In this document: in pieces, positions 1 to 64,000 of the stretch | How the letters are laid out: every line of letters starts with the position of its first letter | Numbering within the stretch: the first letter of the stretch is position 1 | Source of the DNA: Chamaelirium japonicum | Lineage: Eukaryota; Streptophyta; Magnoliopsida; Liliales; Melanthiaceae | Assembly: GCA_947650365.1 (NCBI GenBank) | Contig: CANTAL010000144.1 | Span: 625,001 to 689,000 of the forward strand | Direction: 5' to 3' | DNA: 64,000 nucleotides | Program-made: the position numbers and the translations under genes | Notes under the pieces: generated by a model | The model's database searches: none | The model's input: the letters and a program-made list of their open reading frames with translations, nothing else | What the model was told of the DNA's origin: nothing

Positions 1-345
1 ATTCATACGATCCAATCTAATTCATTCGCACGAATTTATCCATTCTAATTCATTCGTACGATCCATTCTAATTCATTCGCACAATCCATTCTAATTCATT
101 CATAGGATCCATTCTAATTCTTTCGCACGATCCATTCTAATTCATTCGTACAATCTATTCTAATTCATTCGTACGATCCATTCTAATTCATTCGCACGAT
201 CCATTCTAATTCATTTGCATGAATGGATCCATTCTAATTTATTCGTACAATCCATTCTATTTCATTCGTACAATCCATTCTTACTCATTCGTATGATCCA
301 TTCTAATTCATTCACACGAATGTATCCACTCTAATTCATTCGTAT
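1..345 (+). repeat. Plus block 1
   Basis: The block begins inside the array at the window edge. It holds mostly 23-bp units, with one 28-bp unit near 306. Confidence 0.9.
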
Positions 346-692
346 GGATATATTCGTGAGAATGAATTAGAATGGATACATTCGTGCGGATGAATTAGAA
401 TGGGTCGTACGAATGAATTAGAATGGATCGTACGAATGAATTAGAATGGATCATACGAATGAAATAGACTGGATTGTACGAATGAATTAGAATGGATCGT
501 ACGAATGAATTAGAATGGATCGTGTGAAAGAATTAGAATGGATTGTATGAATGAATTAGAATGGATCGTATGAATGAATTAGAATGGATACATTCGTGCG
601 AATGAATTAGAATGGATCGTGCGAATGAAATAGAATGGATCGTACGAATGAATTAGAATGGATCGTACGAATGAATTAGAATAGATTGTGCG
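346..692 (-). repeat. Minus block 2
   Basis: Left junction is at cgtatggatatattcg. From 521 the block is duplicated at 3585. Confidence 0.9.
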
Positions 693-735
693 ACGAATGT
701 ATCCATTCTAGTTCATTCGTACGATCCATTCTAAT
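521..735. repeat. Segmental duplication B, copy 1
   Basis: Matches 3585-3799 at a constant offset of 3,064 bp, from cgtgtgaaag through the strand switch gattgtgcgacgaatgtatc. The only differences I see are substitutions. Confidence 0.9.
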
Positions 736-750
736 TCATTCATACGATCA
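693..750 (+). repeat. Plus block 3 (about two units)
   Basis: Left junction gattgtgcgacgaatgtatc is identical to the one opening the plus block at 3757. Confidence 0.9.
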
Positions 751-2996
751 TAGATCGTACGAAGGAATTAGAATGGATCATACGAATGAATTAGAATGAA
801 TGGATCGTACGAATGAATTAGAATGGATCGTATGAATGAATTAGAATGGATACATTCGTGCGAATGAATTAGAATGGATCGTACAAATGAGAAATAATGG
901 ATCGTACGAATGAAATAGAATGGATTGTACGAAGGAATTAGAATGGATCATACGAATGAAATAGAATGGATCGTACGAAAGAATTAGAATGGATCGTAGG
1001 AATGAATTAGAATGGATCGTACGAATAAATTAGAATGGATCGTACGAATGAAATAGAATGGATTGTACGAATGAATTAGAATGGATCGTACGAATGAATT
1101 AGCATGGATCGTGCTAATGAATTAGAATGGAACGTGCGAATGAATTAGAATGGATCGTAGAATGGATCGTATGAATGAATTAGATTGGATTGTATGAATG
1201 AATTAGAATGGATCATATGCATGAACTAGAATAGATCGTACGAAGGAATTAGAATGGATCGTACGAAGGAATTAGAATGAATACATTCGTGCGAATGAAT
1301 TAGAATGGATCGTACGAATAAATTAAAATGGATCGTACGAATGAATTAGAATGGATCGTACGAATGAAATAGAATGGATTGTATGAATGAATTAGAATGG
1401 ATCGTACGAATGAATTCATACATGTACGAATGAATTAGAATGGATACATTCGTGCGAATGAATTAGAATTAGAATGGATCGTGCGAATGAATTAGAATGG
1501 ATCGTATGAATGAATTAGAATGGATCGTGCGAATGAATTAGAATGGATACATTCGTGCGAATGAATTAGAATGGGTCATACGAATGAATTAGAATGGATC
1601 GTATGAATGAATTAGATTGGATCGTAAGAATGAATTAGAATGGATCGTGCGAATGAATTTGAATGGATCGTACGAATGAATTAAAATGGATCGTATGAAT
1701 GAATTAGAATGGATCGTATGAATAAATTAGAATGGATCGTAACAATGAATTAGAATGGATCGTACGTATGAATTAGAATGGATACATTCATGGGAATGAA
1801 TTAGAATGGATCGTACGAATGAATTAGAATTGATACATTCGTGCGAATGAATTAGAATGGATCGTATGAATGAATTAGAATGGATCGTGCGAATGAATTA
1901 GAATGGATCATACGAATGAATTAAAATGGATCGTATGAATGAATTAGAATGGATCGTATGAATGAATTAGAATGGATCGTATGAATCAATTAGAATGGAT
2001 CGTGCGAATGAATTAGAATGGATCGTACGAATGAATTAGAATGGATCGTATGAATGAATTAGAATGGATCATGCGAATGAATTAGAATGGATCGTATGAA
2101 TAAAATAGAATGGATCGTATGAATTAGAATGGATCGTACGAAGGAATTAGAATGGATCGTACGAATGAATTCATACATGTACGAATGAATTAGAATGGAT
2201 ACATTCGTGCAAAGAAATTAGAATTAGAATGGATCGTGCGAATGAATTAGAATGGATCGTATGAATGAATTAGAATAGATCGTACGAATGAATTAGAATG
2301 GATCGTATGAATGAATTAGAATGGATCGTGCGAATGAATTAGAATAGATCGTACAAATGAATTAGAATGATCTTGCGAATGAATTAGAATGGATCGTATG
2401 AATGAATTAGAATGGATCGTGCGAATGAAATTGAATGGATCGTACGAATGAATTAGTGTGGATTGTGCGAATGAATTAGAATGGATCGTACGAATGAATT
2501 AGAATAGATTGTGCGAATGAATTAGAATGAATCGTACGAATGAATTAGAATGGATCGTAATAATGGATCGTACGAATGAAATAGAATGGATCGTACGAAT
2601 GGATTAGAATTCATTCGTAAGAATGAAATATAATGGATCGTACGAAGGAATTAGAATGGATCGTACGAAGGAATTAGAATGGATCGTACGAATGAATTAG
2701 AATGGATACATTCGTGCAAAAGAATAAGAATGGATTGTATGAATGAATTAGAATGGATCGAATGAATGAATTAGAATGGATCGTGCGAATGAATTAGATA
2801 TGATCATATGAATGAATTAGATTGGATCGTATGAATGAATTAGAATGGATCGTGCGAATGAATTAAAATGGATCGTACGAATGAATTAGAATTGATCGTG
2901 TGAATGAATAAGAATGGATCGTACGAATGAATTAGAATGGGTTGTACGAAGGATATAAAATGGATCGTATGAATGAATTAGAATGGATACATTCGT
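751..2996 (-). repeat. Minus block 4
   Basis: Left junction is catacgatcatagatcgtac. This is the longest minus block. It carries two copies, 755 bp apart, of the odd string gaattcatacatg (1412 and 2167), each followed by the short duplication gaattagaattagaatgg. Confidence 0.92.
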
Positions 2997-3840: not shown

Positions 3841-3913
3841 ACGAATAAATTAGAAAGGATACATTCGTGCGAATGAATTAGAATGGATCATACGAATGAG
3901 TAAGATTGGATCG
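3841..3913 (-). repeat. Minus block 8
   Basis: Left junction is acaatccattacgaataaat, an abrupt cut in mid-unit. Confidence 0.88.
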
Positions 3914-6385
3914 TACGATCCATTCTAATTCATTTGCACGATCCATTCTAATTCATTCGCACGATTCATTCTAATTCATTCATACGATCTATTCTAATTC
4001 TTTCGCACGAATGTATCCTTTCTAATTCATTCGCACGAATGTATCCATTCTAATTGATTCGTACGATCCATTCTAATTCCTTCGTACGATTCATTCTAAT
4101 TCATTCATACGATCCATTCTAATTCATTCGTACGATCCATTCTAATTCATTCGCACGATCCATTCTAATTCATAAGTGCGATCCATTCTAATTCATTTGT
4201 ACGATCCATTCTAATTCATTCGTACGTTCCAGTCTAATTCATTAGCATGATCCATGCTAATTCATTCGTACGATCCATTCTAATTCATTCGCACGATCCA
4301 TTCTAATTCATTCGCATGAATGTATCCATTCTAATTCATTCGTACGATCCAATCTAATTCATTCGTACGATCCATTCTAATTCATTCATACGATCCATTC
4401 TAATTCATTCGTATGATCCATTCTAATTCATTCGCACGATCCATTCTAATTCATTCAAACGATCCATTCTAATTCATTCGCACGAATGTATCCATTCTAA
4501 TTCATTCATACGATCCATTCTAATTCATTCGCACGAATGTATCCATTCTAATTCCTTTGTACGATCTATTCTATTTCATTCGTACGATCCATTCTATTTC
4601 ATTCGTATGATCCCAAACGATCCATTCTTACTCATTCATACGATCCATTCTAATTCATTCGCACGATCTATTCTAATTCATTCATACGATCCATTCTAAT
4701 TCATTCATACGATCCATTCTAATTCATTCGTACGATCCATTCGAATTCATTCGCACGATCCATTCTAATTCATTCATACGATCCATTCTAATTCATTCGC
4801 ACGTATGTATCCATTCTAATTCATTCGTACGATCCATTCTAATTCATTTGGACGAATATATCCATTCTAATTCCTTCGTATGATCCATTCTAATTCATTC
4901 ATACAATCCATTCTAATTCATTCGCACAATCTATTCTAATTCATTCATACGATCCATTCTAATTCTTTCGCACGAATGGATCCATTCTAATTCATTCGTA
5001 CAATCCATTCTAATTCATTCGTACGGTCCATTCTAATTCATTCGTACGATCCATTCTAATTCATTCGTACGATCTATTCTAATCCATTCGTACGATCCAT
5101 TCTAATTCATTCGTACGATCCATTTTAATTCATTCATACAATCCATTCTAATTCATTTGCACGAATATATCTATTCTAATTCATTCGTACGATCCATTCT
5201 AATTCCTTCGTACGATCCATTCTAATTCCTTCGTACAATCTATTCTAATTCATTCGTATGATCCATTCTAATTCATTCGTACAATCCATTCTATTTCATT
5301 CGTACGATCCATTCATACTCATTCGTACGATCCATTCTAATTCATTCATATGATCCAATCTAATTCATTTGCACGAATATATCCATTCTAATTCATTCGT
5401 ACGATCCATTCTATTTCATTCGTACGATTGATTCTTACTCATTCGTATGATCCATTCTAATTCGTTCGTACGATCCATTCTAATTCATTCGTACGATCCA
5501 TTCTAATTCATTCGCACGATCAATTCTAATTCATTCATACAATCCATTCTAATTCATTCGCACGATCCATTCTAATTCATTCATACGATCCAATCTAATT
5601 CATTCATACGATCCATTCTAATTCATTCGTATGATCCATTCTAATTCCTTCGTACGATCCATTCTAATTCATTCCTATGATCCATTCTAATTCATTCGTA
5701 CGATCCATTCTAATTCTTTCGTACGATCCATTCTAATTCATTCGCACGATCCATTCTAATTCATTCGTACGATCCATTCTATTTCATTCGTACGATCCAT
5801 TCTTACTCGATCAATTCTAATTCATTAATACGATCCATTCTTACTCATTCATACGATCCATTCTAATTCATTCATATGATCTATTCTAATTCATTAATAT
5901 GATCCAATCTAATTCATTCATATGATCCATTCTAATTCCTTCGTACGATCCATTCTAATTCTTTCACACGATCCATTCTAATTCATTCGTACGATCCATT
6001 CTAATTCATTCGCACGATCCATTCTAATTCATTCATACGATCTATTCTTTTTCACTCGTACGATCCATTATTACGATCCATTCTAATTCATTCGCACGAT
6101 CCATTCTAATTCATTAATACGATCCATTCTAATTCATTCGTACGACGCACGATCTATTCTAATTCATTCATACAATCCAATCTAATTCATTCATACGTAT
6201 CCATTCTAATTCATTCGTACGATCCATTCTAATTCATTCATATGATCCATTCTAATTCATTCGTACGATCCATTCTAATTTATTTGTACGATCCATTCTA
6301 ATTCATTCGTACGATCCATTCTAATTCATTCATATGATCCATTCTAATTCATTCGCACGAATGTATCCATTCTAATTCATTCGTA
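3914..6385 (+). repeat. Plus block 9
   Basis: Left junction lies in the palindrome ggatcgtacgatcc. This is 2.47 kb without a switch. It includes the marker gtacgacgcacgatc near 6142 and the TTAGCATG/CATGCTAA pair near 4242. Confidence 0.92.
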
Positions 6386-6483
6386 CGAAGGAATTAGAAT
6401 GGATCGTACGAATGAATTAGAATGGATACATTCGTGCGAATGAATTAGAATGGATCATACGAATGAATTAGAATGGATTGTAC
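6386..6483 (-). repeat. Minus block 10
   Basis: Left junction attcattcgtacgaaggaat passes through CGTACG. About four units. Confidence 0.9.
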
Positions 6484-6707
6484 GAATGTATCCATTCTAA
6501 TTCATTCGTACGATCCATTCTAATTCCTTCGTACGATCCATTCTAAATCATTCAAACGATTCAATTTAATTCATTCATAGGATCCATTCTAATTCATTCG
6601 CACAATCTATTCTAATTCATTCGTACGATCCATTCTAATTCATTCGCACAATCTATTCTAATTCATTCATACGATCCATTCTAATTCATTCATACGATCC
6701 ATTCTAA
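6484..6707 (+). repeat. Plus block 11
   Basis: Left junction ggattgtacgaatgtatcc is one of three copies (also 25618 and 39860 areas). Confidence 0.9.
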
Positions 6708-13710: not shown

Positions 13711-13756
13711 GGAATGTATCCATTCTAATTCCTTCGTACGAATGGATCCATTCTAA
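13711..13756 (+). repeat. Plus block 21 (about two units)
   Basis: Left junction is catacgtaggaatgtatcca. It ends in a 24-bp perfect palindrome. Confidence 0.9.
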
Positions 13757-13768
13757 TTAGAATGGATC
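13745..13768. repeat. 24-bp perfect palindrome at a strand switch
   Basis: Arm GATCCATTCTAA and its reverse complement, no spacer, at the plus-to-minus switch. Confidence 0.95.
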
Positions 13769-15781
13769 GTACGAATGAAATAGAATGGATCGTACGAATT
13801 AATTAGAATGGATCATGCGAATAAATTAGAATTGCTCGTACGAATGAATTAGAGTGGATACATTTGTACGAAGGAATTAAAATGGATCGTACGAATGAAT
13901 TAGAATGGATTCATTCGTGCAAATGAATTAGAATGGATCGTATGAATGAATTAGAATGGATTGTATGAATGAATTAGAATGGATCGTACGAATGAATTAG
14001 AATGGATACATTCGTGCGAATGAATTAGAATGGATTATACGAATGAGTAAGAATGGATCGTACGAATGAAATAGAATTGATTGTACGAATGAATTAGAAT
14101 GGATCATACTAATGAATTAGAATGGATCGTGCGAATGAATAAGAATGGATCGTGCGAATGAATTAGAATGGATCGAGCGAATGAATTAGAATGGATCGTA
14201 CGAATGAGTAAGAATGGATCGTACGAATGAAATAGAATGGATCGTACGAATGAATTAGAGTGGATCGTGCGAATGAATTAGAATGGATCATACGAATGAA
14301 TTAGAATAGATTGTGCGAATAAATTAGAATGGATCGTACAATGAATTAGAATAGATCGTAATAATGGATCGTATGAATGAATTAGAATGGATACATTCGT
14401 ACGAATGAATTAGAATGGATTGTACGAAGGAATTAGAATGGATACATTCGTACGAATGAATTAGAATGGATCCTACAATGAATTAGAATAGATTGTGCGA
14501 ATGAATTAGAATGGATCGGATGAATGAATTAGATTGGATCGTATGAATGAATTAGAATGGATCGTGCGAATGAATTAGAATGGATCGTACGAATGAATTA
14601 GAATGGATCATACGAATGAAATAGATGGATACATTCGTGCGAATGAATTAGAATAGATCGTACGAATGAGTAAGAATGGATCGTACGAATGAAATAGAAT
14701 GGATTGTACGAATGAATTAGAATGGATCGTACGAATGAAATAGAATGGATCGTACGTATGAATTACAATGGATCGTGCGAATGAATTAGAATGGATCGTA
14801 TGAATGAATTAGAATGGATCGTACGAATGAAATAGAATGGATCGTGCGAATGAATTAGATTGGATCGTGCGAATGAAATAGAATGGATCGTGCGAATGAA
14901 ATAGAATGGATACAAATGAATTAGACTGGATCATACGAATGAATTAGAATGGATCGTACGAATGAAATAGAATGGATCATACGTATGAATTAGAATGGAT
15001 CGTGCGAATGAATTAGAAAGGATCGTATGAATGAAATAGAATGGATCGTACAAATGAAATAGAATGGATCGGGCGAATGAATTAGAATGGATCGTGCGAA
15101 TGAAATAGAATGGATACAAATGAGTTAGAATGGATCATACGAATGAATTAGAATGGATCGTATGAGTGAATTCGAGTGGATCGTGCGAATGAATTAGAAT
15201 GGATTGTACGAATGAATTAGAATGGATCGTGCTAATGAGTAAGAATGGATCGTACGAATGAATTAGAATGGATCGTATGAATGAATTAGAATGGATCGTA
15301 CGAAGGAATTAGAATGGATCGTACGAATGAATTAGAATGGATATATTCGTGCGAATGAATTAGAATGGATCGTACGAATGAGTAAAAATGGATCGTACGA
15401 ATGAAATAGAATGGATTATACGAAGGAATTTGAATGGATACATTCGTGCGAATGAATTAGAATGGATTGTACGAATGAATTAGATTGGATCATGCGAATG
15501 AATTAGAATGGATTGTACAAATGAGTAAGAATGGATCGTGCGAATGAATTAGAATGGATCGTACGAATGAATTAGAATGGATACATTCGTGCAAAAGAAT
15601 TAGAATGGATTGTATAAATGAATTAGAATGGATCGTGCGAATGAATTAGAATGGATACATTCGTGCGATTGAATTAGAATGGATCGTATGAATGAATTAG
15701 ATTGGATCGTATGAATGAATTAGAATGGATCGTGCGAATGAATTAGAATGGATCGTACGAATGAATTAGAATGGATCATAT
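13757..15781 (-). repeat. Minus block 22
   Basis: Left junction is the centre of ccattctaattagaatgg. From 14411 it is copy 1 of the 1.9-kb segmental duplication. Confidence 0.92.
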
Positions 15782-16290
15782 GTTCTAATTCATTCGCACG
15801 AATGTATCCATTCTAATTCATTCGTACGATCCATTCTAATTCATTCATACGATCCATTCTATTTCATTTGCACGAATATATCCATTTATATTCATTTGTA
15901 GGATCCATTCTAATTCATTCGTACGATCCATTCTAATTCATTCGCACAATCTATTCTAATTCATTCGTACGATCAATTCTAATTCATTAGCACGATCCAT
16001 TATAATTCATTCGGAATGGATCATACGAATGAATTAGAATGGATCGTATGAGTGAATTCGAATGGATCATGCGAATGAATTAGAATGGATTGTACGAATG
16101 AATTAGAATGGATCGTATGAATGAATTAGATTGGATCATATGAATGAATTAGAATGGATTGTGCGAATGAATTAGAATGGATCGTACGAATGAATTAGAA
16201 TGGATCGTATGAATGAATTAGAATGGTTCGTGCGAATGAATTAGAATGGATCATACGAATGAATTAGAATGGATACATTCGTGCAAATGA
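14411..16290. repeat. Segmental duplication A, copy 1
   Basis: This segment reappears at 17881-19783. Offset is 3,470 bp at the left (tagaatggattgtacgaagg at 14411 and 17881) and 3,493 bp from about 15100 on, so copy 2 has one extra 23-bp unit. Shared landmarks are atagatggatac, two tacaaatga units, atgagtgaattcg, gcaaaagaat, both strand switches of the plus island and gaatggttcgtgcg. Homology stops shortly after gtgcaaatga (16281). Confidence 0.93.
15782..16012 (+). repeat. Plus block 23
   Basis: Left junction gatcatatgttctaattcat matches the one at 19275. This is an island inside the duplicated segment. Confidence 0.9.
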
Positions 16291-17245
16291 ATTAGAATGG
16301 ACACATTCGTGCGAATGAATTAGAATGGATCGAGCGAATGAATTAGAATGGATCGTACGAATGAGTAAGAATGGATCGTACGAATGAAATAGAATGGATC
16401 GTACGAATGAATTAGAATGGATTGTGCGAATGAATTAGAATGGATCATACGAAATAAATTAGAATAGATTGTGCGAATGAATTAGAATGGATCGTACAAT
16501 AAATTAGAATAGATCGTAATAATGGATCATACGAATGAAATAGAATGGATCGTACGAATTAATTAGAATTCATTCGTACGAATGAAATAGAATGGATCGT
16601 ACGAAGGAATTAGAATGGATCGTACGAAGGAATTAGAAAAGATCGTACGAATTAATTAGAATGGATACATTCGTGCAAAAGAATTAGAATCGATTGTATA
16701 AATGAGATAGAATGGATCGAATGAATGAATTAGAATGGATCGTGCGAATGAATTAGATTGGATCGTATGAATGAATTAGAATGGATCGTACGAATGAATT
16801 AGAATAGATTGTGCGAATGAATTAGAATGGATCGTACGAATGAATTAGAATTGATCGTACGAATGAATTAGAATAGATTGTGCGAATGAATTAGAATGGG
16901 TCGTACGAATGAATTAGAATGGATCGTATGAATGAATTAGAATGGATCGTACGAATGAATTAGAAGGATCGTGCGAATGAATTAGAATGGATCGTGCGAA
17001 TGAATTAGAATGGATCGTATGAATGAATTAGAATGGATCGTGTGAATGAATTAGAATGGATCATATGAATAAAATAGAATGGATCGTATGAATTAGAATG
17101 TATCGTACGAAGGAATTAGAATGGATCGTATGAATGAATTTGATTGGATCGTATTAATGAATTAGAATGGATTGTATGAATGAGTTAGAATGGATCGTAC
17201 GAATGAGTAAGAATGGATCGTATTAATGAATTAGAATTGATCGTG
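16013..17245 (-). repeat. Minus block 24
   Basis: Left junction aattcattcggaatggatca matches the one at 19507. Confidence 0.9.
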
Positions 17246-17872
17246 CGCACGAATCATTCAAATTCATTCGTACAATCCATTCTAATTCAATCGCACGATC
17301 CATTCAAATTCACTCATACGATCCATTCTAATTCATTCCTACAATCCATTCTAATTCATTCGCACGATCCATTCTAATTCTTTCACACGATCCATTCTAT
17401 TTCATTTATACGATCCATTCTAATTCATTCGCACGACCCATTCTAATTCATTCATACGATCCATTCTAATTCATTCGTACGATCCATTCTAATTCATTTG
17501 CACGATCCATTCTAATTCATAAGTACGATCCATTCTAATTCATTCATACGATCCATTCTAATTCATTTGCACGATCCATTCTAATTCCATTCTATTTCAT
17601 TCGTACGATCCATTCTTACTCAATCGTATGATCCATTCTAAATCATTCGCACGAATGTATCCATTCTAATTCATTCGTACGATCCATTCTAATTCATTCG
17701 CACGATCCATTTTAATTCATTAATACGATCCAATCTAATTCATTCATATGATCCATTCTAATTCATTCGCACAAATGTATCTATTCTAATTCATTCGTAC
17801 GATTCTAATTCTTTCATATAATCCATTCTAATTCTTTCACACGTCATACGATCCATTCTAATTCCTTCGTAC
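17246..17872 (+). repeat. Plus block 25
   Basis: Left junction gatcgtgcgcacgaatcatt includes the palindrome CGTGCGCACG. Confidence 0.9.
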
Positions 17873-19274
17873 GATTGAATTAGAATGGATTGTACGAAGG
17901 AATTAGAATGGATACATTCGTACGAATGAATTAGAATGGATCCTACGAATGAATTAGAATAGATTGTGCGAATGAATTAGAATGGATCGTATGAATGAAT
18001 TAGATTGGATCGTATGAATGAATTCGAATGGATCGGGCGAATGAATTAGAATGGATCGTACGAATGAATTAGAATGGATCATACGAATGAAATAGATGGA
18101 TACATTCGTGCGAATGAATTAGAATAGATCGTACGAATGAGTAAGAATGGATCTTACGAATGAAATAGAATGGATTGTACGAATGAATTAGAATGGATCG
18201 TACGAATGAAATAGAATGGATCGTACGTATGAATTAGAATGGATCGTGCGAATGAATTAGAATGGATCGTATGAATGAATTAGAATGGATAGTACGAATG
18301 AAATAGAATGGATCGTGCGGATGAATTAGAATGGATCGTGCGAATGAATAGAATGGATCGTGCGAATGAAATAGAATGGATACAAATGAATTAGAATGGA
18401 TCATACGAATGAATTAGAATGGATCGTACGAATGAAATAGAATGGATCGTACGTATGAATTAGAATGGATCGTGCGAATGAATTAGAATGGATCGTATGA
18501 ATGAATTAGAATGGATCGTACGAATGAAATAGAATGGATCGTGCGAATGAATTAGAATGGATCGTGCGAATGAATTAGAATGGATCGTGCAAATGAAATA
18601 GAATGGATACAAATGAGTTAGAATGGATCATATGAATGAATTAGAATGGATCGTATGAGTGAATTCGAGTGGATCGTGCGAATGAATTAGAATGGATTGT
18701 ACGAATGAATTAGAATGGATCGTGCTAATGAGTAAGAATGGATCGTACGAATGAATTAGAATGGATCGTATGAATGAATTAGAATGGATCGTACGAAGGA
18801 ATTAGAACGGATCGTACGAATGAATTAGAATGGATATATTCGGGCGAATGAATTAGAATGGATCGTACGAATGAGTAAGAATGGATCGTACGAATGAAAT
18901 TGAATGGATTGTACGAAGGAATTAGAATGGATACATTCGTCCGAATGAATTAGAATGGATTGTACGAATGAATTAGATTGGATCGTGCGAATGAATTAGA
19001 ATAGATCGTACAAATGAGTAAGAATGGGTCGTGCGAATGAATCAGAATGGATCGTACGAATGAATTAGAATGGATACATTCGTGCAAAAGAATTAGAATG
19101 GATTGTATGAATGAATTAGAATGTATCGTGCGAATGAATTAGAATGGATACATTCGTGCGATTGAATTAGAATGGATCGTATGAATGAATTAGATTGGAT
19201 CGTATGAATGAATTAGAATGGATCGTGCGAATGAATTAGAATGGATCGTACGAATGACTTAGAATGGATCGTAT
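17873..19274 (-). repeat. Minus block 26
   Basis: Left junction cttcgtacgattgaattaga is also the left edge of copy 2 of the 1.9-kb duplication. Confidence 0.92.
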
Positions 19275-19783
19275 GTTCTAATTCATTCGCACGAATGTAT
19301 CCATGCTAATTCATTCGTACGATCCATTCTAATTCATTCATACGATCCATTCTATTTCATTTGCACGAATATATCCATTCTAATTCATTCGTATGATCCA
19401 TTCTAATTCATTCGTACGATCCATTCTAATTCATTCGCACAATCTATTCTAATTCATTCGTACGATCAATTCTAATTCATTAGCACGATCCATTATAATT
19501 CATTCGGAATGGATCATACGAATAAATTAGAATGGATCGTATGAGTGAATTCGAATGGATCGTGCGAATGAATTAGAATGGATTGTACGAATGAATTAGA
19601 ATGGATCGTATGAATGAATTAGATTGGATCATATGAATGAATTAGAATGGATTGTGCGAATGAATTAGAATGGATCGTACGAATGAATTAGAATGGATCG
19701 TCTGAATGAATTAGAATGGTTCGTGCGAATGAATTAGAATGGATCGTATGAATGAATTAGAATGGATACATTCGTGCAAATGA
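17881..19783. repeat. Segmental duplication A, copy 2
   Basis: Second copy of 14411-16290. Its left edge coincides with a strand switch, and its right edge lies just after gtgcaaatga at 19774. It includes a whole plus island (19275-19506), so inversion came before duplication. Confidence 0.93.
19275..19506 (+). repeat. Plus block 27
   Basis: Left junction gatcgtatgttctaattcat. Copy of the island at 15782. Confidence 0.9.
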
Positions 19784-20669
19784 AAAGAATGGATCGTACG
19801 AATGAGTAAGAATGGATCGTACAATTAGAATGGATCGTACGAATGAATTAGATTGGATCGTATGAATGAATTAGAATGGATCGTACGAATGAATTAGAAT
19901 AGATCGTACGAAGGAATTAGAATGGATCGTATGAGTGAATTAGAATGGATCGTACGAATGAATTAGAATGGATCGTATGAATGAATTAGAATGGACACAT
20001 TCGTGCGAATGAATTAGAATGAGTAAGAATGGATCGTACGAATGAAATAGAATGGATTGTACGAATGAATTAGAATGGATCGTACGAATGAATGAGTAAG
20101 AATGGATCGTACGAATGAAATAGAATGGATTGTACGAATGAATTAGAATGGATCGTACAAATGAATAAGAAAGGATCGTGCGAAAGAATTAGAATGGATT
20201 GTACGAATTAATTAGAATGGATCGTGCGTCGTACGAATGAATTAGAATGGATCGTATTAATGAATTAGAATGGATCGTGCGAATGAATTAGAATGGTTCG
20301 TACGAATGAATTAGAATGGATCGTACGAATGAATTAGAATGGATCGTACGAATAAGTAAGAATGGATTGTACGAATGAATTAGAATGGATCGTACGAATG
20401 AATTAGAAAGGATCGTACGAATGAATTAGAATGGATCGTGCGAATGAATTAGAATGGATCGTGCGAATGAATTAGAATGGATCGTGCGAATGAATTAGAA
20501 TGGATCGTACGAATGAGTAAGAATAGATCGTACGAATGAAATAGAATGGATCGTACGAATGAATTAGAATGGATCGTGCGAATGAATTAGAATGGATCGT
20601 ACGAATGAATTTGAATAGATTGTGCGAATGAATTAGAATGGATCATACAAATGAATTAGAATGGATCGT
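19507..20669 (-). repeat. Minus block 28
   Basis: Left junction aattcattcggaatggatca. From 20094 it matches 41172 onward. Confidence 0.9.
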
Positions 20670-25623: not shown

Positions 25624-26445
25624 ACGAATGTATCCATTCTAATTCATTCGTACGATCCATTCGAATTCATTCGTACGATCCATTCTAATTCATTCGTACG
25701 ATCCATTCTAATTCATTCGCACAATCTATTCTAATTCATTCGTACGATCAATTCTAATTCATTCGTACGATCCATTCTAATTCATTCGCACTATCTATTC
25801 TAATTTATTCGTACGATCCATTCTAATTCATTCGCACGAATGTATCCATTCTAATTCATTCATACGATTCATTCTAATTCCTTCATACGATCCATTCTAA
25901 TTCATATGATCCATTCTATTTCATTCGTACGATCCATTCTATTTCATTCGTACGATCCATTCTTATTCATTCGTACGATCCATTCTAATTCATTAATACG
26001 ATCAAATCTAATTCATTCATACGATCCATTCTAATTTATTTGTACGTTCCATTCTAATTCATTCGTACGATCCATTCTAATTCATTCATACGATCCATTC
26101 TAATTCATTCGTACGATCCATTCTAATTCATTCGCACGAATGTATCCATTCTAATTCATTCATACGATCTATTCTATTTCTTTCGTACGATCCATTCTAA
26201 TTCATACGATCCATTCTATTTCTTTCATACGATCCATTCTAATTCATTCGCACGATCCATTCTAATTCATTCATACGATCCATTCTAATTCATTCGTACG
26301 ATCCATTCTAATTCATTCGTACGATCGATTCTAATTGATTCGTACGATCCATTCTAATTCATTCATACGATCCATTCTAATTTATTTGCATGAATATATC
26401 CATTCTAATTCATTCGTACGATCCATTCTAATTCATTCGTACGAT

Positions 26446-27802: not shown

Positions 27803-29456
27803 ATTCATTCTAATCCATTCTATTTCATTCGTACGATCCATTCTAATTCATTCGTACAATCTATTCTTACTCATTCGTACGATCCATTCTTACTCATTCG
27901 TATGATCCATTCTAATTCATTCGCACGAATTTATCCATTCTAATTCATTCGTACGATCCATTTTATTTCATTCGTACGATCCATTCTAATTCATTCGCAC
28001 GATCCATTATAATTCTAATTCCTTCGTACGTACGATCCATTCTAATTCCTTTGTACGATCCATTCTATTTCTTTCATAAGATCCAATCTAATTCATTCAT
28101 ACGATCCATTCTATTTCATTCGTACGATCCATTCTTACTCATTCATACGATCCATTCTAATTCATTTGCACGATCCATTCTAATTCATTCGTACAATCCA
28201 TTCTATTTCATTCGTACGATCCATTCTTACTCATTCGTATGATCCATTCTAATTCATTCGCACGAATGTATCTATTCTAATTTATTCGTACGATCCATTC
28301 TAATTCATTCGTACGATCTATTCTAATTCATTCATACGATCCATTCTAATTCATTCATACGATCCATTCTATTTCTTTCGCATGAATGTATCCATTCTAA
28401 TTCATTCGTACGTTCCATTCTAATTCATTCGCACGATTATATCCATTCTAATTCATTTGTACGATCTATTCTAATTCATTCGCACAATCTATTCTAATTC
28501 ATTCGTACAATCCATTCTATTTCATTCGTACGATCCATTCTTACTCATTCGTACGATCCATTCTAAATCATTCGTATGATCCATTCTAATTCATTCGCAC
28601 GATCCATTCTAATTCATTCGTACAATCCATTCTAATTCATTTGCACGAATATATCCATTCTAATTCATTCGTACGATCCATTCTAATTCATTCATACGAT
28701 CCATTCTAATTCATTCATACAATCCATTCTAATTCTTTCACACGATCCATTCTAATTCATTCGTACGTTCCATTCTAATTCATTAGCACGATCTATGCTA
28801 ATTCATTCGTACGATCCATTCTAATTCATTCGCACGATCCAATCTAATTCATTCGCACGAATGTATCCATTCTAATTCATTCGTACGATCCATTCTAATT
28901 CATTCGCACGAATGTATATAATTCATTCGTACGATCCATCCTAATTCATTCGTACAATCCATTCTAATTCATTCATACAATCCATTCTAATTCATTCGTA
29001 CGATCCATTCTAATTCATTCGCACGATCCATGCTAATTCATTCGTACGATCCATTCTATTTCATTCGTACAATCCATTCTAATTCATTCGTACGATCCAT
29101 TCTAATTCATTCGTACAATCCATTCTATTTCATTCGTACGATCTTACTCATTCGTACTCGTACAATCCATTCTAATTCATTCGTACGATCCATTCTAAAT
29201 CATTCGCACGAATATATCCAGATCCATTCTAATTCATTCGCACGATCCATTCTAATTTATTCGCACGATCCATTCTAATTCATTCGTACAATCCATTCTT
29301 ACTCATTCGTACGATCCATTCTAATTCATTCGCACGAATTTATCCATTCTAATTCATTCGTACGATCTATTCTAATTCATTCATAAGTACGATCCATTCT
29401 ATTTCGTTCGTACGATCCATTCTAATTCATTCGTACGATCCATTCTAATTCCTTCG
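27803..29456 (+). repeat. Plus block 41
   Basis: Left junction is atggatacattcattctaat. Confidence 0.9.
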
Positions 29457-44635: not shown

Positions 44636-45709
44636 GTATCCATTCTAATTCATTCGTACGATCCATTCTAATTCATAAGTATGATCCATTCTAATTCATT
44701 AGCATGATCCATTCTAATTCATTCGTACGATTCATTATAATTCATTCGCACAATCTATTCTAATTTATTCGTACGTTCCATTCTAATTCATTAGCACGAT
44801 CCATGCTAATTCATTCGTACGATCCATTCTATTTCATTCGTACGATCCATTATTACGATCCATTCTAATTCATTCGTACGATCCATTCAAATTCATTCGC
44901 ACAATCTATTCTAATTCATTAGTACGATCCATTCTAATTCATTAGCACGATCCATTCTAATTCATTCATACAATCCATTCTAATTCTTTTGCATGAATGT
45001 ATCCATTCTAATTAATTCGTACGATCCATTCTAATTCCTTCGTACGATCCATTCTAATTCATTCCCATGAATGTATTCATTCTAATTGATACGTACGATC
45101 CATTCTATTTCATTCGTACGATCCATTCTTACTCATTCGTACGATCCATTCTAATTCATTCGCACGAATGTATCCACTCTAATTCATTCGTACGATCCAT
45201 TCTAATTCATTCGCACGATCCATTCTAATTCATTCTTACGATCCATTCTAATTCATTCGTATGATCCATTCTAATTTATTCGCACGATCCATTCTAATTC
45301 ATTTATACGATCCATTCTAATTCATTCATACAATCCATTCTAATTCTTTCAGACGATCCATTCTAATTCATTCGTACGATCCATTCTAATTCATTCGTAC
45401 AATCCATTCTAATTCATTCACACGAATGTATCCATTCTAATTCATTCGTACGATCCATTCTAATTCATTCGCACGATCCATTCTAATTCATTCATACAAT
45501 CCATTGTAACTCTTTTGCACGAATGTATCCATTCTAATTCATTCGTACGATCCATTCTAATTCATTCATACGATCCATTCTAATTCATTCGCACGATCCA
45601 TTCTAATTCATTCATACGATCCATTCTAATTCCTTTGTACGATCCATTCTAATTCATTCATACGTTCCATTCTAATTCATTCGTACGATTCATTCTAATT
45701 CATTCGCAC
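44636..45709 (+). repeat. Plus block 77
   Basis: Left junction ggatcgtgtatccattctaa. The stretch from 45063 resembles 9751 onward. Confidence 0.9.
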
Positions 45710-47160
45710 GGAATGGATCGTACCAATGAATTAGAATGGATACAGTCGTGCGAATGAATTCGAATGGATCGTACGAATGAATTAGAATGGATAAATTCGT
45801 GCGAATGAATTAGAATGGATTGTATGAATAAATTAGATTGCATCGTATAAATGAATTAGAATGGATCGTACGCATGGATTAGAATGGATACATTCATGGG
45901 AATGAATAAGAATGGATCGTACGAAGGAATTAGAATGGATCATACGAATGAAATTAGAATGGATCATACGAAGGAATTAGAATGGATCGTACGAAGGAAT
46001 TAGAATGGATCGTACGAATGAATTAGAATGGATCGTTTGAATGAATTAGAATGGATCGTGCGAATGAATTAGAATGGATCGTACGAAGGAATTAGAATCG
46101 ATCGTGCGAATGAATTAGAATGGATCGTACGAATGAATTGGAATGGATATATTCGTGCAAATGAATTAGATTAGATCGTATGAATGAATTAGAATGGATC
46201 GTATGTATGAATTAGAATGGATACATTCATGGGAATGAATTAGAATGGATCGTACAAAGGAATTAGAATGGAATGGATCGTACTTATGAATTAGAATGGA
46301 TCGTACGAATGAATTAGAATGGATCGTGTGAATGAATTAGAATGGATCGTGCAAATGAATTAGAATGGATCGTATGAATGAATTAGAATGGATACATACG
46401 AATGAATTACAATGGATCGTACGAAGGAATTGGAATGGATCGTACGTACGAAGGAATTAGAATGGATCGTACGAAAGAATTAGAAAGGATCGTACGAATG
46501 AATTAGAATGGATACATTCATGCGAATGAATTAGAATGGATCGTGCGTACGAATTAATTAGAATGTATACATTCATGCGAATGAATTAGAAGGGATCGTA
46601 TGAATGGATTAGATTGGATCGTATGAATGAATTAGAATGGATTGTACGTATGAATTAGAATGGATACATTCATGGGAATGAATTAGAATGGATCGTATAA
46701 AGGAATTAGAATGGATCATACGAATGAAATATAATGGGTCGTACAAAGGAATAAGAATGGATCGTACGAAGGAATTAGAATGGATCGTACGAAGGAATTA
46801 GAATGGATCGTGCTAATGAATTAGAATAGATCGTACGAATGAATTAGAATAGATTGTGCGAATTAATTAAAATGGATCGTACGAATGAATTAGAATGGAT
46901 ACATTCGTCCGAAGGAATTAGAATAGATCGTACGAAGGAATTATAATGGATCGTACGAATGAATTAGAATAGATCGTACGAATAAATTAGAATGGATACA
47001 TTCGTGCGAATAAATTAGAATGGATCGTGCGAATGAATTTTGAATGGATCGTACAAATGAATTAGAATAGATCGTACGAATGAATTAGAATGGATCGTAT
47101 GAATGAATTAGAATGGATCGTGCGAATGAATTAAAATGGATTATACGAATGAAATAGAAT
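45710..47160 (-). repeat. Minus block 78
   Basis: Left junction attcgcacggaatggatcgt, like 25061. Holds a shorter minus form of the higher-order core near 45790. Confidence 0.9.
45785..45912 (-). repeat. Higher-order core, shortened minus copy
   Basis: Reads ggataaattcgtgcg, gattgcatcgtataaatg, cgtacgcatg and cattcatgggaatgaataag in order. Confidence 0.82.
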
Positions 47161-50471: not shown

Positions 50472-50625
50472 CCATTCTTATTCATTCCCATGAATGTATC
50501 CATTCTAATTCATACGTATGATCCATTCTAATTCATTTATACGATCCAATCTAATTCATTTATACAATCCATTCTAATTCATTCGCACGAATTTATCCAT
50601 TCTAATTCATTCGTACGATCCATTC
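50472..50625 (+). repeat. Higher-order core, shortened plus copy
   Basis: Has cttattcattcccatgaatg, cgtatgatcc, catttatacgatccaatc and gcacgaatttatcc, then departs. Confidence 0.8.
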
Positions 50626-50676
50626 GAATTCATTCGCACGAATGTATCCATTCTAATTCATTCGTACGATCCATTC

Positions 50677-55738: not shown

Positions 55739-56814
55739 CGATCCAATCTAATTCATTCATACGATCTATTCTAATTCATTCATACGATCCATTCTAATTC
55801 ATTCGTACGATTCATTCTAATTCAATCCATTCTAATTCATTCGTACGATCCATCCTAATTCATTAATACGATCCAATCTAATTCATTCATACGATCCATT
55901 CTAATTCCCTTGTACGATCCATTCTAATTCATAAGATCCATTCTATTTCATTCATACGATCCATTCTAATTCATTCACACGATCCATTCTAATTCATTCA
56001 TACGATCCATTCTAATTCATTTGTACGATCCATTCTAATTCATTCGTACGTTCCATTCTAATTCATTACCACGATCCATGCTAATTCATTCGTACGATCC
56101 ATTCTAATTCATTCGCACGATCCATTCTAATTCATTCATACGATCCATTCTAATTCATTCGTACGATCCATTCAAATTCATTCGCACGATCCATTCTAAT
56201 TCATTCGCACAATCTATTCTAATTCATTCGCACTATCTATTCCAATTCATTCGTACGATCCATTCTAATTCATTCGCACGATCCATTCTAATTCATTCGT
56301 ACAATCCATTCTATTTCATTCATACGATCCATTCTAATTCATTCATACGATCCATTCTAATTCATTCGTACGATCCATTCTAACGTACGATCCATTCTAA
56401 TTCATTCGCACGAATGTATCCATTCTAATTCATTCGTACGATCCATTCTAATTCATTCGTACGATCCATTCTATTTCATTTGTACGATCCATTCTAATTC
56501 ATTCGTACGATCCATTCTAATTCTTTCGTACGATCCATTCTAATTCATTCGCACGATCCATTCTAATTCATTCGTACGATCCATTCTAATTCATTCGCAC
56601 GAATGTATCCATTCTAATTCATTCGTACGATCCATTCTAATCCTTCATACGATCCATTCTAATTCCTTCGTACGATCCATTCTAATTCCTTCGTATGATC
56701 CATTCTAATTCATTCATACGATCCATTCTAATTCATTCGTACGATCCATTCTAATTCATTCATACGATCCATTCTAATTCATTTGCACGAATATATCCAT
56801 TCTAATTCATTCGT
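55739..56814 (+). repeat. Plus block 89
   Basis: Left junction is ggatcgtgcgatccaatcta. From 56160 it belongs to tandem copy 1. Confidence 0.9.
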
Positions 56815-57124
56815 AGGATACATTCGTGCGAATGAATTAGAATGGATCATACGAATGAGTAAGAATGGATCGTACGAATGAATTAGAATAGATCGTACGA
56901 ATGAATTAGAATGGATCGTGCTAATGAATTAGAATTGATCGTACAAATGAATTAGAATAGATTGTGCAAATGAATTAGAATGTATCGTACAAATGAATTA
57001 GAATGGATACATTCATGCGAATGGATTAGAATGGATCATACGAATGAATTAGAATGGATCGTACGAATGAATTAGAATAGATTGTGCGAATGAATTAGAA
57101 TGGATCGTATGAATGAATTAGAAT
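56815..57124 (-). repeat. Minus block 90
   Basis: Left junction attcgtaggatacattcgtg. Confidence 0.9.
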
Positions 57125-57180
57125 ACAATCCATTCTATTTCATTCGTACGATTCATTCTAATTCATTCGTACAATCCATA
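57125..57180 (+). repeat. Plus block 91
   Basis: Left junction attagaatacaatccattct. Confidence 0.9.
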
Positions 57181-57440
57181 CATTCGTGCGAATTAATTAG
57201 AATGGATCATATGAATGAATTAGAATGGATCATATGAGTGAATTCGAATGGATCGTGCGAATGAATTAGAATGGATTGTACTAATGAATTAGAATGGATC
57301 GTATGAATGAATTAGAATAGATTGTGCGATATGAGTGAATTCTAATGGATCGTGCGAATGAATTAGAATGGATTGTACGAATGAATTAGAATGGATCGTA
57401 TGAATGAATTAGAATGGATCGTGCGAATGAAATAGAATGG
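57181..57440 (-). repeat. Minus block 92
   Basis: Left junction acaatccatacattcgtgcg. Confidence 0.9.
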
Positions 57441-58196
57441 ATTCGCATGAATGTATCTATTCTAATTCATTCGTACGATCCATTCTAATTCATTCGTACG
57501 ATCCATTCTATTTCATTCGCACGATCCATTCTAATTCATTCGTACGATCCATTCAAATTCATTCGCACGATCCATTCTAATTCATTCGCACAATCTATTC
57601 TAATTCATTCGCACTATCTATTCCAAATCATTCGTACGATCCATTCTAATTCATTCGCACTATCCATTCTAATTCATTCGTACAATCCAGTCTATTTCAT
57701 TCATACGATCCATTCTAATTCATTCATACGATCCATTCTAATTCATTCGTACGATCCATTCTAACGTACGATCCATTCTAATTCATTCGCACGAATGTAT
57801 CCATTCTAATTCATTCGTACGATCCATTCTAATTCATTCGTACGATCCATTCTATTTCATTTGTACGATCCATTCTAATTCATTCGTACGATCCATTCTA
57901 ATTCCTTTGTACGATCCATTCTAATTCATTCGCACGATCCATTCTAATTCATTCGTACGATCCATTCTAATTCATTCGCACGAATGTATCCATTCTAATT
58001 CATTCGTACGATCCATTCTAATTCCTTCGTACGATCCATTCTAATTCCTTCGTACGATCCATTCTAATTCCTTCGTATGATCCATTCTAATTCATTCATA
58101 CGATCCATTCTAATTCATTCGTACGATCCATTCTAATTCATTCATACGATCCATTCTAATTCATTTGCACGAATATATCCATTCTAACTCATTCGT
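57441..58196 (+). repeat. Plus block 93
   Basis: Left junction agaatggattcgcatgaatg. The boundary of the two tandem 1.38-kb copies falls inside it. Confidence 0.9.
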
Positions 58197-58506
58197 AGGA
58201 TACATTCGTGCGAATGAATTAGAATGGATCATACGAATGAGTAAGAATGGATCGTACGAATGAATTAGAATAGATCGTACGATTGAATTAGAATGGATCG
58301 TGCTAATGAATTAGAATTGATCGTACAAATGAATTAGAATAGATTGTGCAAATGAATTAGAATGTATCGTACAAATGAATTAGAATGGATACATTCATGC
58401 GAATGGATTAGAATGGATCGTACGAATGGATTAGAATGGATCGTACGAATGAATTAGAATAGATTGTGCGAATGAATTAGAATGGATCGTATGAATGAAT
58501 TAGAAT
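58197..58506 (-). repeat. Minus block 94
   Basis: Left junction attcgtaggatacattcgtg, 1,382 bp after its twin. Confidence 0.9.
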
Positions 58507-58561
58507 ACAATCCATTCTATTTCATTCGTACGATTCATTCTAATTCATTCATACAATCCAT
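58507..58561 (+). repeat. Plus block 95
   Basis: Left junction attagaatacaatccattct, 1,382 bp after its twin. Confidence 0.9.
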
Positions 58562-58822
58562 ACATTCGTGCGAATTAATTAGAATGGATCATATGAATGA
58601 ATTAGAATGGATCGTATGAGTGAATTCGAATGGATCGTGCGAATGAATTAGAATGGATTGTACCAATGAATTAGAATGGATCGTATGAATGAATTAGAAT
58701 AGATTATGCGATATGAGTGAATTCTAATGGATCGTGCGAATGAATTAGAATGGATTGTACGAATGAATTAGAATGGATCGTATGAATGAATTAGAATGGA
58801 TCGTGCGAATGAAATAGAATGG
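58562..58822 (-). repeat. Minus block 96
   Basis: Left junction acaatccatacattcgtgcg, 1,382 bp after its twin. Confidence 0.9.
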
Positions 58823-59003
58823 ATTCGCATGAATGTATCTATTCTAATTCATTCGTACGATCCATTCTAATTCATTCGTACGATCCATTCTATTTCATTC
58901 GCACGATCCATTCGAATTCACTCATACGATCCATTCTAATTCATTCATACGATTCATTCTAATTCATTCATACGATCCATTCTAATTCATTCGCATGAAT
59001 GTT
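58823..59003 (+). repeat. Plus block 97
   Basis: Left junction agaatggattcgcatgaatg, 1,382 bp after its twin. Tandem copy 2 ends near 58912. Confidence 0.9.
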
Positions 59004-61234: not shown

Positions 61235-62065
61235 ATGAATGAATTAGAATGGATCATGTGAATGAATTAGAATGGATCGTACGAATGAATTAGAATGGAT
61301 CGTATGAATGAATTAGAATAGATTGTGCGAATGAATTAGAATGGATCATACGAATGAATTAGAATGGATAAATTCGTGCGAATGAATTAGAATGGATTGT
61401 ATGAATGAATTAGATTGGATCGTATAAATGAATTAGAATGGATCGTATGTATGAATTAAAATGGATACATTCATGGGAATGAATTAGAATGGATCGTACG
61501 AAGGAATTAGAATAGATCGTGCGAATGAATTAGAATGGATCGTACGAATGAATTAAAATGGATCGTACGAATGAATTAGAATGGATCGTACGAATGAATT
61601 AGAATGGATCGTATGAATGAATTAGAGTGGATCGTGTGAAAGAATTAGAATGGATTGTATGAATGAATTAAAATAGATTGTGCGAATGAATTAGAATGGA
61701 TCGTACGAATGAATTAGAATGGATCATGCGAATGAATTAGAATATATACATTCATGCGAATGAATTAGAATGGATCATATGAATGAGTAAGAATGGATCG
61801 TACGAATGAAATAGAATGGATTGTACGAATGAATTAAAATGGATCGTACGAATGAATTAGAATGGGTCGTCTGAAAGAATTAGAATGGATTATATGAATG
61901 AATTAGAATGGATCGTATGAATGAATTAGAATGGATCGTACGAATGAATTAGAATGGATACATTCGTGCGAATGAATTATAATGGATCGTACGAATGAGT
62001 AAGAATGGATCGTACGAATGAAATAGAATGGATTGTACGTATCAATTAGAATGGATACATTCGTG
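61235..62065 (-). repeat. Minus block 104
   Basis: Left junction is tcatttgcatgaatgaatta. Holds a minus form of the higher-order core (61313-61480). Confidence 0.9.
61313..61480 (-). repeat. Higher-order core, shortened minus copy
   Basis: Reads atagattgtgcg, ggataaattcgtgcg, gattggatcgtataaatg, cgtatgtatg and cattcatgggaatgaat. Confidence 0.82.
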
Positions 62066-62112
62066 ACGATCCATTCTAATTCATTCATACGATCCATTCT
62101 AATTCATTCGCA
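62066..62112 (+). repeat. Plus block 105 (two-unit island)
   Basis: Left junction tacattcgtgacgatccatt. Copy of the island at 24287. Confidence 0.9.
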
Positions 62113-62406
62113 CGTACGAATGAATTAGAATGGATCGTACGAATGAATTAGAATGGATACATTGTGCGAATGAATTAGAATGGATCGTACGAAGGAATTA
62201 GAATGGATCGTACGAATGAATTAGAATGGATATATTCGTGCAAATGAATTAGAATGGATCATACGAATGAATAAGAATGGATCTTACGATTGAAATAGAA
62301 TGGATCGTACGAATGAATTAGAATGGATAAATTCGTGCGAATGAATTAGAATGGATTGTATGAATGAATTAGATTGGATCATACGAATGAATTAGAATGG
62401 ATCGTA
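62113..62406 (-). repeat. Minus block 106
   Basis: Left junction is cattcgcacgtacgaatgaa. Confidence 0.9.
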
Positions 62407-63773
62407 CGTCCTTTGTATGATCCATTCTAATTTATTCATACGATCCATTCTAATTCATTCGTACGATCCATTCTAATTCATTCGCACGATCCATTCTAAT
62501 TCATTCATACGATCCAATCTAATTCATTCATACGATCCTATCTAATTCATTCGCACAATCTATTCTAATTCATTCGTATGATCCATTCAAATTCATTCGT
62601 ATGATCCATTCTAATTCATTCGTACGACCCATTCTATTTCATTCGCACGATCCATTCTAATTCATTTGCACGATCCATTCTAATTCATTCGCACGATCCA
62701 TTCTAATTCATTCGTACAATCCATTCAATTTCATTCGTACGATCCATTTTTACTCATTCGTACGATCCATTCTAATTCATTCGCACGAATGTATCCATTC
62801 TAATTCATTCGTACGATCCATTCTAATTCATTCGTACGATCCATTCTAATGCATTCGTACGATCCATTCTAATTCATTCGCATGATCCATTCTAATTCAT
62901 TCGTACGATCCATTCTAATTCATTCGCACGAATGTATCCATTCTAATTCATTCGTACGATCCATTCTAATTCATTCATACAATCCATTCTAATTCATTCG
63001 TACGATCCATTCTAATTCATTCGTACGATCCATTCTAATTCATTCGCATGAATGTATCCATTCTAATTAATTCGCACGATCCATTCTAATTCATTCGTAA
63101 GATCCATTCTAATTCATTCGCATGATCCATTCTAATTCATTCGCTCGATCCATTCTAATTCATTCGCACGATCTATTCTAATTCATTCATACGATCCATT
63201 CTAATTCATTCGCACGATCCATTCTAATTTATTCGCACGATCCATTCTAATTCATTCATACGATCCATTATAATTCATTTGTACGATCCATTCTAATTCA
63301 TTCGCATGATCTATTCTAATTCATTCGCATGATCCATTCTAATTCATTCATACGATCCATTCTTATTCATTCGTACGATCTATTCTAATTCATTCGCACA
63401 ATCATTCTAATTCATTCCTACGATCTATTCTAATTCCTTCGTACGATCCATTCTAATTCATTCGTACGATCCATTCTAATTCATTCGTACGATCCATTCA
63501 AATTCATTCGTACAATCCATTCTAATTCATTCGCACGATCCATTCTAATTCATTCACACAATCTATTCTAATTCATTCATATGATCCATTCTAATTCATT
63601 CATACGATTCATTCTAATTCATTCACATGAATGTATCCATTCTAATTCATTCGTACGATCCATTCTAATTCCTTCGTACACATTTATCCACTCTAATTCA
63701 ATCGTACGATCCATTTTAATTCATTCGTATGATCCATTCTAATTCATTCGCACGATCCATTCTAATTCATTCG
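62407..63773 (+). repeat. Plus block 107
   Basis: Left junction is gatcgtacgtcctttgtatg. Confidence 0.9.
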
Positions 63774-64000
63774 TCGTACGAAGGAATTAGAATGGATACA
63801 TTCGTGCGAATGAATTATAATGGATCATGCGAATGAATTAGAATGGATCATACGAATGAATTAGAATGGATCGTAAGAATGAATTAGAATGGATCGTACG
63901 AATGAATTAGAATGGATTGTACGAATGAATTAGAATGGATCGTACGAATGAATTAGAATGGATCGTGCGAATGAATTAGAATGGATCGTGCGAATGAATT
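63774..64000 (-). repeat. Minus block 108, runs off the window
   Basis: Left junction attcattcgtcgtacgaagg repeats the one at 36756. The window ends inside a unit. Confidence 0.9.

Follow-up and report, generated by a model that had tools for sequence, protein, structure and literature searches.

What kind of repeat fills the 64,000-bp stretch of DNA analysed here (the window), and how did its units come to lie in short blocks of alternating orientation? The window, which covers positions 625001-689000 of its contig, an unplaced one of 805,175 bp, is occupied by a single satellite with the consensus TCGTACGATCCATTCTAATTCAT; the match states of a strand-aware HMM hold 62,086 of the 64,000 bases, and 93.1% of these equal the consensus. 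The dominant monomer is 23 bp (exactly so in 2146 of 2814 units). A 28-bp variant is represented by 279 units of exactly this length, and an insert of at least 4 bp is found in 345 units. Position 3 is C in 81% of the 28-mers (20% of the 23-mers) and T in 78% of the 23-mers. This bias, together with the 28-bp units, fits the 5-bp indel plus one substitution that distinguish the published 23- and 28-bp monomers Chio1 and Chio2 (Kuo et al. 2023, PMC10264360). The consensus, which reads CATTCGTACGATCC across the unit border, contains both an 8-bp dyad and the 9-bp TTCGTACGA, given in a 2025 paper as a shared centromere satellite motif (PMC12722358).

Several features of its sequence thus identify the array as the centromeric Chio1 (23 bp)/Chio2 (28 bp) satellite of the holocentric plant Chionographis japonica. 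Plant-like flanks, together with the 23- and 28-bp units, first pointed to Chionographis. The assembly totals 1,518,659,071 bp compared with the published 1,526,137,861 bp (a gap of <0.5%). It encodes a 23/23 match to the published C. japonica CENH3 peptide, beginning at ATG, and a 17/20 rather than a 20/20 match to the published NDC80 peptide, inside an Ndc80_HEC protein. Unit lengths, indel and substitution, 8-bp dyad, TTCGTACGA, mixed orientation, genome size and CENH3 peptide are alike in both (PMC10264360, PMC12722358), and we found no separating feature in the available parts of these accounts; the match is one of described features, as the published monomers are shown as a figure. Scans of the window returned no Rfam match, no tRNA and no ORF of at least 120 amino acids from stop to stop. 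An exact satellite 26-mer had no match in genome_contigs and viral_contigs, two collections that may not include the genome of the window itself. Satellite sequence words had no match in literature texts, a literature search for a 23-bp satellite returned none, and other literature searches gave neighbouring systems only.

Table 1. Coordinates of the array, its duplicated segments and representative junctions (positions in the window; F, forward; R, reverse).
Feature	Position	Strand	Details
Chio1/Chio2 satellite array	1..64000	alternating	2814 units, whole or partial; 102 blocks (prior 1e-6)
Higher-order tandem duplication, period ~1382 bp	56081..58995	+	98.0% identical, 1534-bp alignment, 1 gap position
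Direct duplicate pair	14396..16496 and 17866..19977	+	94.7% identical, two switches
Segment with diverged inverted copy	25671..26062, copy 32156-32547	+	top inverted log-odds score, 60.1
Segment with switch 45710	45635..46086		inverted copy 50301-50752, own switch 50676
F>R junction at 8-bp dyad	29425..29495	+	switch after 29459; predicted long single-strand hairpin, -23 kcal/mol, z -9.9
R>F junction at TCGTACGA	3884..3944	+	switch after 3914
R>F junction, Chio2-overlap type	6458..6510	+	GTACGAATG then TATCC; switch after 6488
Short forward block between reverse blocks, example of the original prediction	13718..13758	+	41 bp, HMM

We confirm that the strand switching in the window is real. When switches were called with the HMM at priors from 1e-2 to 1e-15, their number fell from 195 (1e-2, very loose) through 113 (1e-3), 107 (1e-4) and 105 (1e-5) to 101 (1e-6 and 1e-8), 99 (1e-10), 95 (1e-12) and 93 (1e-15), and the 107 switches and 108 blocks of the original prediction are reproduced exactly at 1e-4. 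A one-strand array with alignment noise is ruled out, as simulated one-strand arrays drawn from the profile gave no switch in 9 of 9 runs (three arrays at three priors). Our working set (prior 1e-6; 101 switches, 102 blocks) has a mean block length of 627 bp (median 348.5 bp, CV 1.00). The same alternating pattern is present in 12 other loci of the assembly, with switch densities of 1.28/kb there and 1.58/kb in the window; one stretch of ~20 kb (C1:64,796,155-64,816,845) lies nearly on one strand. Strand-specific subfamilies are likewise ruled out, as unit likeness is ~0.88 whether or not two units share a strand; the exception is lag 1 across junctions, where it is 0.850 and the units compared are partial. 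Unit identity does not drop as distance grows. Neighbouring unit types are strongly linked, which means that shuffling is incomplete.

The strand changes are old features of the DNA. Depending on the threshold, the 101 switches group into ~76-89 junction lineages and are therefore not all independent, and junctions have been copied in both orientations (Table 1). The duplication with the 1382-bp period carries four switches per copy (56825, 57124, 57183 and 57442 versus 58207, 58506, 58565 and 58824), and the 94.7% identical pair shares the switches 15782/19275 and 16013/19506. Segments are shared beyond chance 18 times in direct and 18 times in inverted orientation, with a switch inside 8 of these 36; maximum scores in three permutations were 21.3 (direct) and 18.0 (inverted).

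Microhomology is in excess at the junctions. An overlap of at least 6 bp is found at 42 of the 101 window junctions compared with 9.6% of 3000 random joins, and at 39 of 132 junctions from the 12 other loci (random, 9.5%); an 8-bp overlap occurs at 8 of 101 junctions versus 155 of 20,000 random joins. About half of the junctions show little or no overlap (≤5 bp in 59 of 101), and a stricter, profile-based overlap test that leaves the Chio2 insert out of account gave no significant result (P = 0.079). Junction copies inflate junction tests; among 84 dereplicated junctions a phase bias persists (P = 0.012 and 0.0005). The phase classes that are common in other loci (2, 7 and 0) do not lead in the window. 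Genome-wide, the 8-bp dyad has 4185 and 3267 palindromic joins, compared with counts of 0, 1, 30 and 73 for the four joins used as controls; the consensus-word probabilities are of similar size, and a palindromic join pools ~9 equivalent breakpoints, a control join 1-3. At called boundaries, TCGTACGA is not enriched relative to circular shifts (10 versus 9.2), a null that represents array positions rather than random joins, nor are CATTCGCACGAATG and CGAATG. Additional R>F junctions of the Chio2-overlap type occur after 25630 and 39872. Junction-adjacent units contain fewer 28-mers (14 of 202 versus 345 of 2814 overall), and many of them are cut short.

Could missed adapters, chimeric contigs or misjoined repeats have produced the pattern, or a replicating strand that folds back at the dyad and uses itself as template? 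The latter would leave mirror-image arms, and mirror-image flanks at most switches would equally mark a read fold-back artefact; we find them neither in the window nor in the 12 other loci. With 400-bp arms, local alignment places 9 of 101 junctions above the 95th and 1 of 101 above the 99th percentile of the null, whereas anchoring at the junction leaves 3 and 0 of 101, and adjacent block lengths are unmatched (permutation P = 0.39). The claim that flanks lack mirror symmetry is thus mostly borne out, and the switch originally given as an example (13758) has a best palindrome arm of 12 bp. In the 12 other loci, 16 of 126 junctions exceed the 95th and 4 of 126 the 99th percentile, a slight excess over a null that paired different loci only. 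Fold-back or missed-adapter artefacts as a general cause are ruled out by the mostly non-mirror flanks and unmatched block lengths. Satellite arrays are hard to assemble, and gap runs of 500 and 5000 N occur in two loci elsewhere in the assembly. Against an artefact, junctions are common to copies diverged by at least 2-5%, 1-bp length errors are few (59 of 2814 units are 22 or 24 bp long versus 2146 of 23 bp), the other loci show the same pattern, and the published assembly, which we take to be this one, is PacBio HiFi at 58.5x, its authors reporting mixed orientation. We consider an artefact extremely improbable, and the original view that read fold-back is not the source is supported by the flanks, by junctions recurring in diverged copies and by the 12 other loci. 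Fold-back replication draws support from the 8-bp stem predicted for two neighbouring Chio1 units (-6 kcal/mol, z -3.2), the common palindromic joins and the slight mirror excess in the other loci; the near absence of mirror arms in the window, which later turnover may have eroded, and the unmatched blocks make it unlikely.

In-place inversion, in which head-to-tail segments are excised and put back in reverse, or are flipped when inverted copies recombine, predicts an end-to-end phase relation that we find in 4 of 100 window blocks (4.3 expected) and in 6 of 229 blocks from the window and 13 loci (10.0 expected). Clean inversion can be rejected as a general rule. The same holds for clean insertion, whose register fits 10 of 229 blocks, and for replacement that preserves length, which fits 13 of the 229 (10.0 expected for each); among blocks ≤120 bp, the insertion register is found within 1 base in 13 of 52 (6.8 expected). 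An off-register peak lies at +9 (25 of 229 blocks). Later moves could have wiped the register of old blocks, and recombination between opposite-strand blocks would flip an interval without new junctions and be invisible to this test; even so, we judge inversion improbable. It is very unlikely, finally, that mixing is selected, for instance because inverted copies form hairpins or cruciforms that aid CENH3 loading. The forward fraction is close to one half (0.503 in the window, 0.491 in the 12 loci), and related proposals were made by the authors for Tribolium macro-dyads (PMC13081366) and for TTCGTACGA (PMC12722358), but random strand choice also yields one half (permutation sd 0.049), and the sister plant's array is centromeric yet said to be consistently oriented (PMC12722358).

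We favor, as the probable explanation, turnover of the array through break repair or template switching that is ectopic, assisted by microhomology and free to use either strand, with the junctions copied afterwards. Breaks, perhaps triggered by hairpins, or stalled forks would be repaired from copies of the same repeat, possibly far off, on either strand. The dyad TCGTACGA in each monomer would provide identity between the two strands and the 5-bp Chio2 extra would add a second CGAATG/CATTCG overlap, together giving 6-10 bp of inter-strand identity, so that a broken or displaced end could join, or continue on, an opposite-strand copy. Every such event would leave one switch, and later duplication or conversion would copy switches in direct or inverted orientation, mixing the strands to ~50:50. 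Weighing against this reading are the junctions with little overlap, the non-significant profile-based test, the lack of motif enrichment at called boundaries, the phase classes of the window, the low share of 28-mers next to junctions, the slight mirror excess in the other loci and the linkage of neighbouring unit types. More tentatively, and with considerable doubt, arrays might begin as head-to-tail tandems whose higher-order period is (Chio1)2-4-Chio2; the C1 stretch would be a relict of that state. Inside actively repaired centromere chromatin they would be broken up and rejoined via TCGTACGA and the Chio2 overlap, in both orientations and between centromere units that lie megabases from one another; strand scrambling would then be a clock and trace of turnover, and switch density a measure of past break repair.

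That Chio arrays mix strands is already known: Kuo et al. 2023 (PMC10264360) reported arrays of mixed forward and reverse orientation, and the 2025 paper (PMC12722358) calls the orientation "frequently alternating". The original judgement that such switching is unusual therefore stands for satellites in general but not as a novelty, being in print for this plant. The available parts of these accounts hold no counterpart to the switch densities, the mostly non-mirror flanks, the lineage count, the junctions copied both ways, the microhomology excess, the dyad-join counts, the chance-level clean inversion or the ~20-kb one-strand stretch. Tribolium macro-dyads (PMC13081366) similarly alternate subarray orientation in (peri)centromeric regions and have short dyads in the monomer, but are described as consisting, for the most part, of two subarrays in opposite orientation, each of several kb, that tend to symmetry, with one or two or a few conserved inversion sites; the window instead has 102 blocks in 64 kb with unmatched neighbours, and 76-89 lineages rather than one or two sites. 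The Chama satellite of Chamaelirium luteum (PMC12722358), from a sister lineage, is centromeric and has TTCGTACGA in common, but its monomer is 60 bp and its arrays are said to be homogeneous, with a consistent orientation. In CUS-TR24 of Cuscuta europaea (PMC8091179), satellite loci likewise show both orientations and segmental duplications; there, opposite-orientation arrays are rarer (10-15% nearby), and SSRs and LINEs interrupt them.

According to Kuo et al. (PMC10264360), it is not known what role the 8-bp dyad plays; the 2025 authors (PMC12722358) propose that breaks may arise from hairpins of TTCGTACGA. Our findings touch on the reasons for the fast change of centromere satellites and on whether short dyads cause breaks. 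An array that records rejoinings as strand switches would offer a readable trace of its turnover, for which the consistently oriented sister species offers a comparison.

Over all its 64 kb the window (G000:C156:625001-689000) consists purely of tandem copies of a 23-bp unit, and we found no ORF of at least 120 aa, no Rfam match and no tRNA in it. The satellite fits Chio, the centromeric satellite of holocentric Chionographis japonica, a species listed at NCBI under Chamaelirium japonicum. According to the accessible text of Kuo et al. 2023 (PMC10264360), Chio consists of 23- and 28-bp monomers (Chio1 and Chio2, 5 bp and one substitution apart) with an 8-bp dyad, and accounts for 16.11% of the C. 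japonica genome (published HiFi assembly, 1,526,137,861 bp), which has 100 centromere units with forward and reverse arrays mixed in each. A 34-base satellite word, allowing up to 3 mismatches, occurs 3,288,016 times in forward and 3,251,428 times in reverse orientation in the whole assembly that contains the window (1,518,659,071 bp); at 23 bp per occurrence this amounts to ∼150 Mb, about a tenth of the assembly. The published CENH3 peptide is present at 23/23 residues. The published NDC80 antibody peptide matches an Ndc80_HEC protein (contig C1, 80,383,384-80,383,443; locus L034) at 17/20 residues, and beyond an allelic or strain difference we cannot explain the three that differ.

We called strand switches using a circular profile HMM that models the unit in both orientations. 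At a prior of 1e-4 it returns 107 switches, exactly the number in the original prediction. Between priors of 1e-15 and 1e-3 the count stays within 93-113, and at 1e-2 it rises to 195; simulated one-strand arrays gave 0 switches in 9 runs. The 101 switches at 1e-6 formed the working set for later tests. Blocks have a mean length of 627 bp (median 348.5, CV 1.00), and 50.3% of the bases are forward (sd under chance block order, 4.9 points).

Fold-back reads leave mirror-image flanks. Such flanks are not the rule here: 9/101 window junctions exceed the 95th percentile of the null and 1/101 the 99th, with 16/126 and 4/126, respectively, at other loci. The same junctions reappear within diverged duplications in the window, and 12 other loci, none abutting it, behave alike (133 switches over 103,668 bp of satellite sequence, or 1.28 per kb; forward share 49.1%). 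The initial doubt about a read artefact, for which mirror-image flanks at most switches would have spoken, is upheld, and the strand switching is confirmed.

Unit identity in the window is 0.877-0.882 on the same strand at all tested lags (1 to 800 units) and about equal between strands, and the types of adjacent units depend on each other, with a mutual information z of 25 at lag 1. The window holds 18 direct and 18 inverted shared segments above chance (log-odds at least 25; the highest scores reached by three permutations were 21.3 direct and 18.0 inverted). A switch lies inside 8 of these 36 segments. Comparison with 17 other pieces of the assembly, at a threshold of 22 that is not calibrated across loci, gave 23 common segments with L014, 18 with L027, 14 each with L016 and L022, 13 with L023, 8 with L013, 4 with L018, one each with L015, L017, L019, L020 and L031, and none with L021, L024, L025, L028 and L030. 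L022, L023 and L027 lie on C1, and therefore part of the sharing crosses contigs; the window's unplaced contig, C156, may be part of C1. Register tests favored neither clean inversion nor insertion nor replacement of blocks. One off-register phase offset (+9) is common to 25/229 blocks (10.0 expected) and probably stems from favored junction classes.

Satellite features and their positions
Feature	Position	Locus pieces
Chio, single strand, ∼20.7 kb	G000:C1:64,796,155-64,816,845	L029:8155-10000, L028:1-10000, L030:1-8845
Small Chio arrays outside large arrays	G000:C1, about 42.7 Mb	L025:2821-5862, L026:5310-5637
Recent higher-order tandem repeat of 1382 bp, each copy with four strand switches	window 56081-58995	

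The one-strand stretch on C1, interrupted by two non-satellite gaps (450 and 475 bp), has an identity to the window consensus of 0.916-0.922 versus 0.929-0.942 in the larger scrambled loci, and 8.4-8.9 28-mers per kb versus 4.3-5.9. Its autocorrelation peaks at 97, 120 and 74 bp correspond to 3, 4 or 2 Chio1 plus one Chio2. It is possibly an older array, a relict of the unscrambled state, a single locus and a lead only. The small arrays in L025 and L026 are dense both in 28-mers, with 10.9 and 9.2 per kb, and in switches, with 12 and 1, respectively; the latter array runs from a short forward into a reverse block and looks fold-back-like.

For each junction we added the exit phase to the entry phase; the result, S, stays constant when an ambiguous breakpoint slides. 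With near-identical junctions removed (43 and 41 kept), S is non-uniform in the window (P 0.012 and 0.0005). Common classes fall at the dyad TCGTACGA (6 for F>R, 8 for R>F) and at the Chio2-insert overlap CGAATG/CATTC (19 and 3). The window's leading classes are enriched at other loci (17/66 versus 8.6; 24/67 versus 11.7), which also favor classes 2, 7 and 0. Overlaps of at least 6 bp occur at 42/101 window junctions versus 9.6% of random joins, and at 39/132 junctions elsewhere versus 9.5%. A narrower test ignoring the Chio2 insert gave an overall P of 0.079 in the window, with 8-bp overlaps at 8/101 junctions versus 155/20,000. Boundaries lie within the word CGAATGTAT at 15/101 window junctions versus 2.4 by circular shift (10/133 versus 4.3 at other loci); for the dyad word there is no enrichment in the window (10/101 versus 9.2), the null here being intact units, which carry this word everywhere. 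Across the genome, exact palindromic dyad joins of 26 bp occur 4185 and 3267 times, compared with 0, 1, 30 and 73 times for control joins of equal length and same-order word probability. This factor is rough, because about nine breakpoints are pooled in a dyad join and one to three in a control, and because copying inflates every count.

In the window, unit columns 1, 2, 5 and 6, within the dyad, show CpG transitions at 7, 24, 11 and 13%, and the four remaining C columns C>T at 1.5-7.6%, fitting the Chio CpG methylation reported in the accessible part of PMC10264360.

Alternation of Chio is already in print, in words, in the accessible parts of PMC10264360 and of a 2025 paper (PMC12722358, "frequently alternating orientation"), and is therefore known; the 2025 paper describes the Chama arrays of the sister genus as consistently oriented. 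The junction-level picture is absent from these parts of the published accounts. As a source of the switches, ectopic, microhomology-assisted repair would be the best fit.
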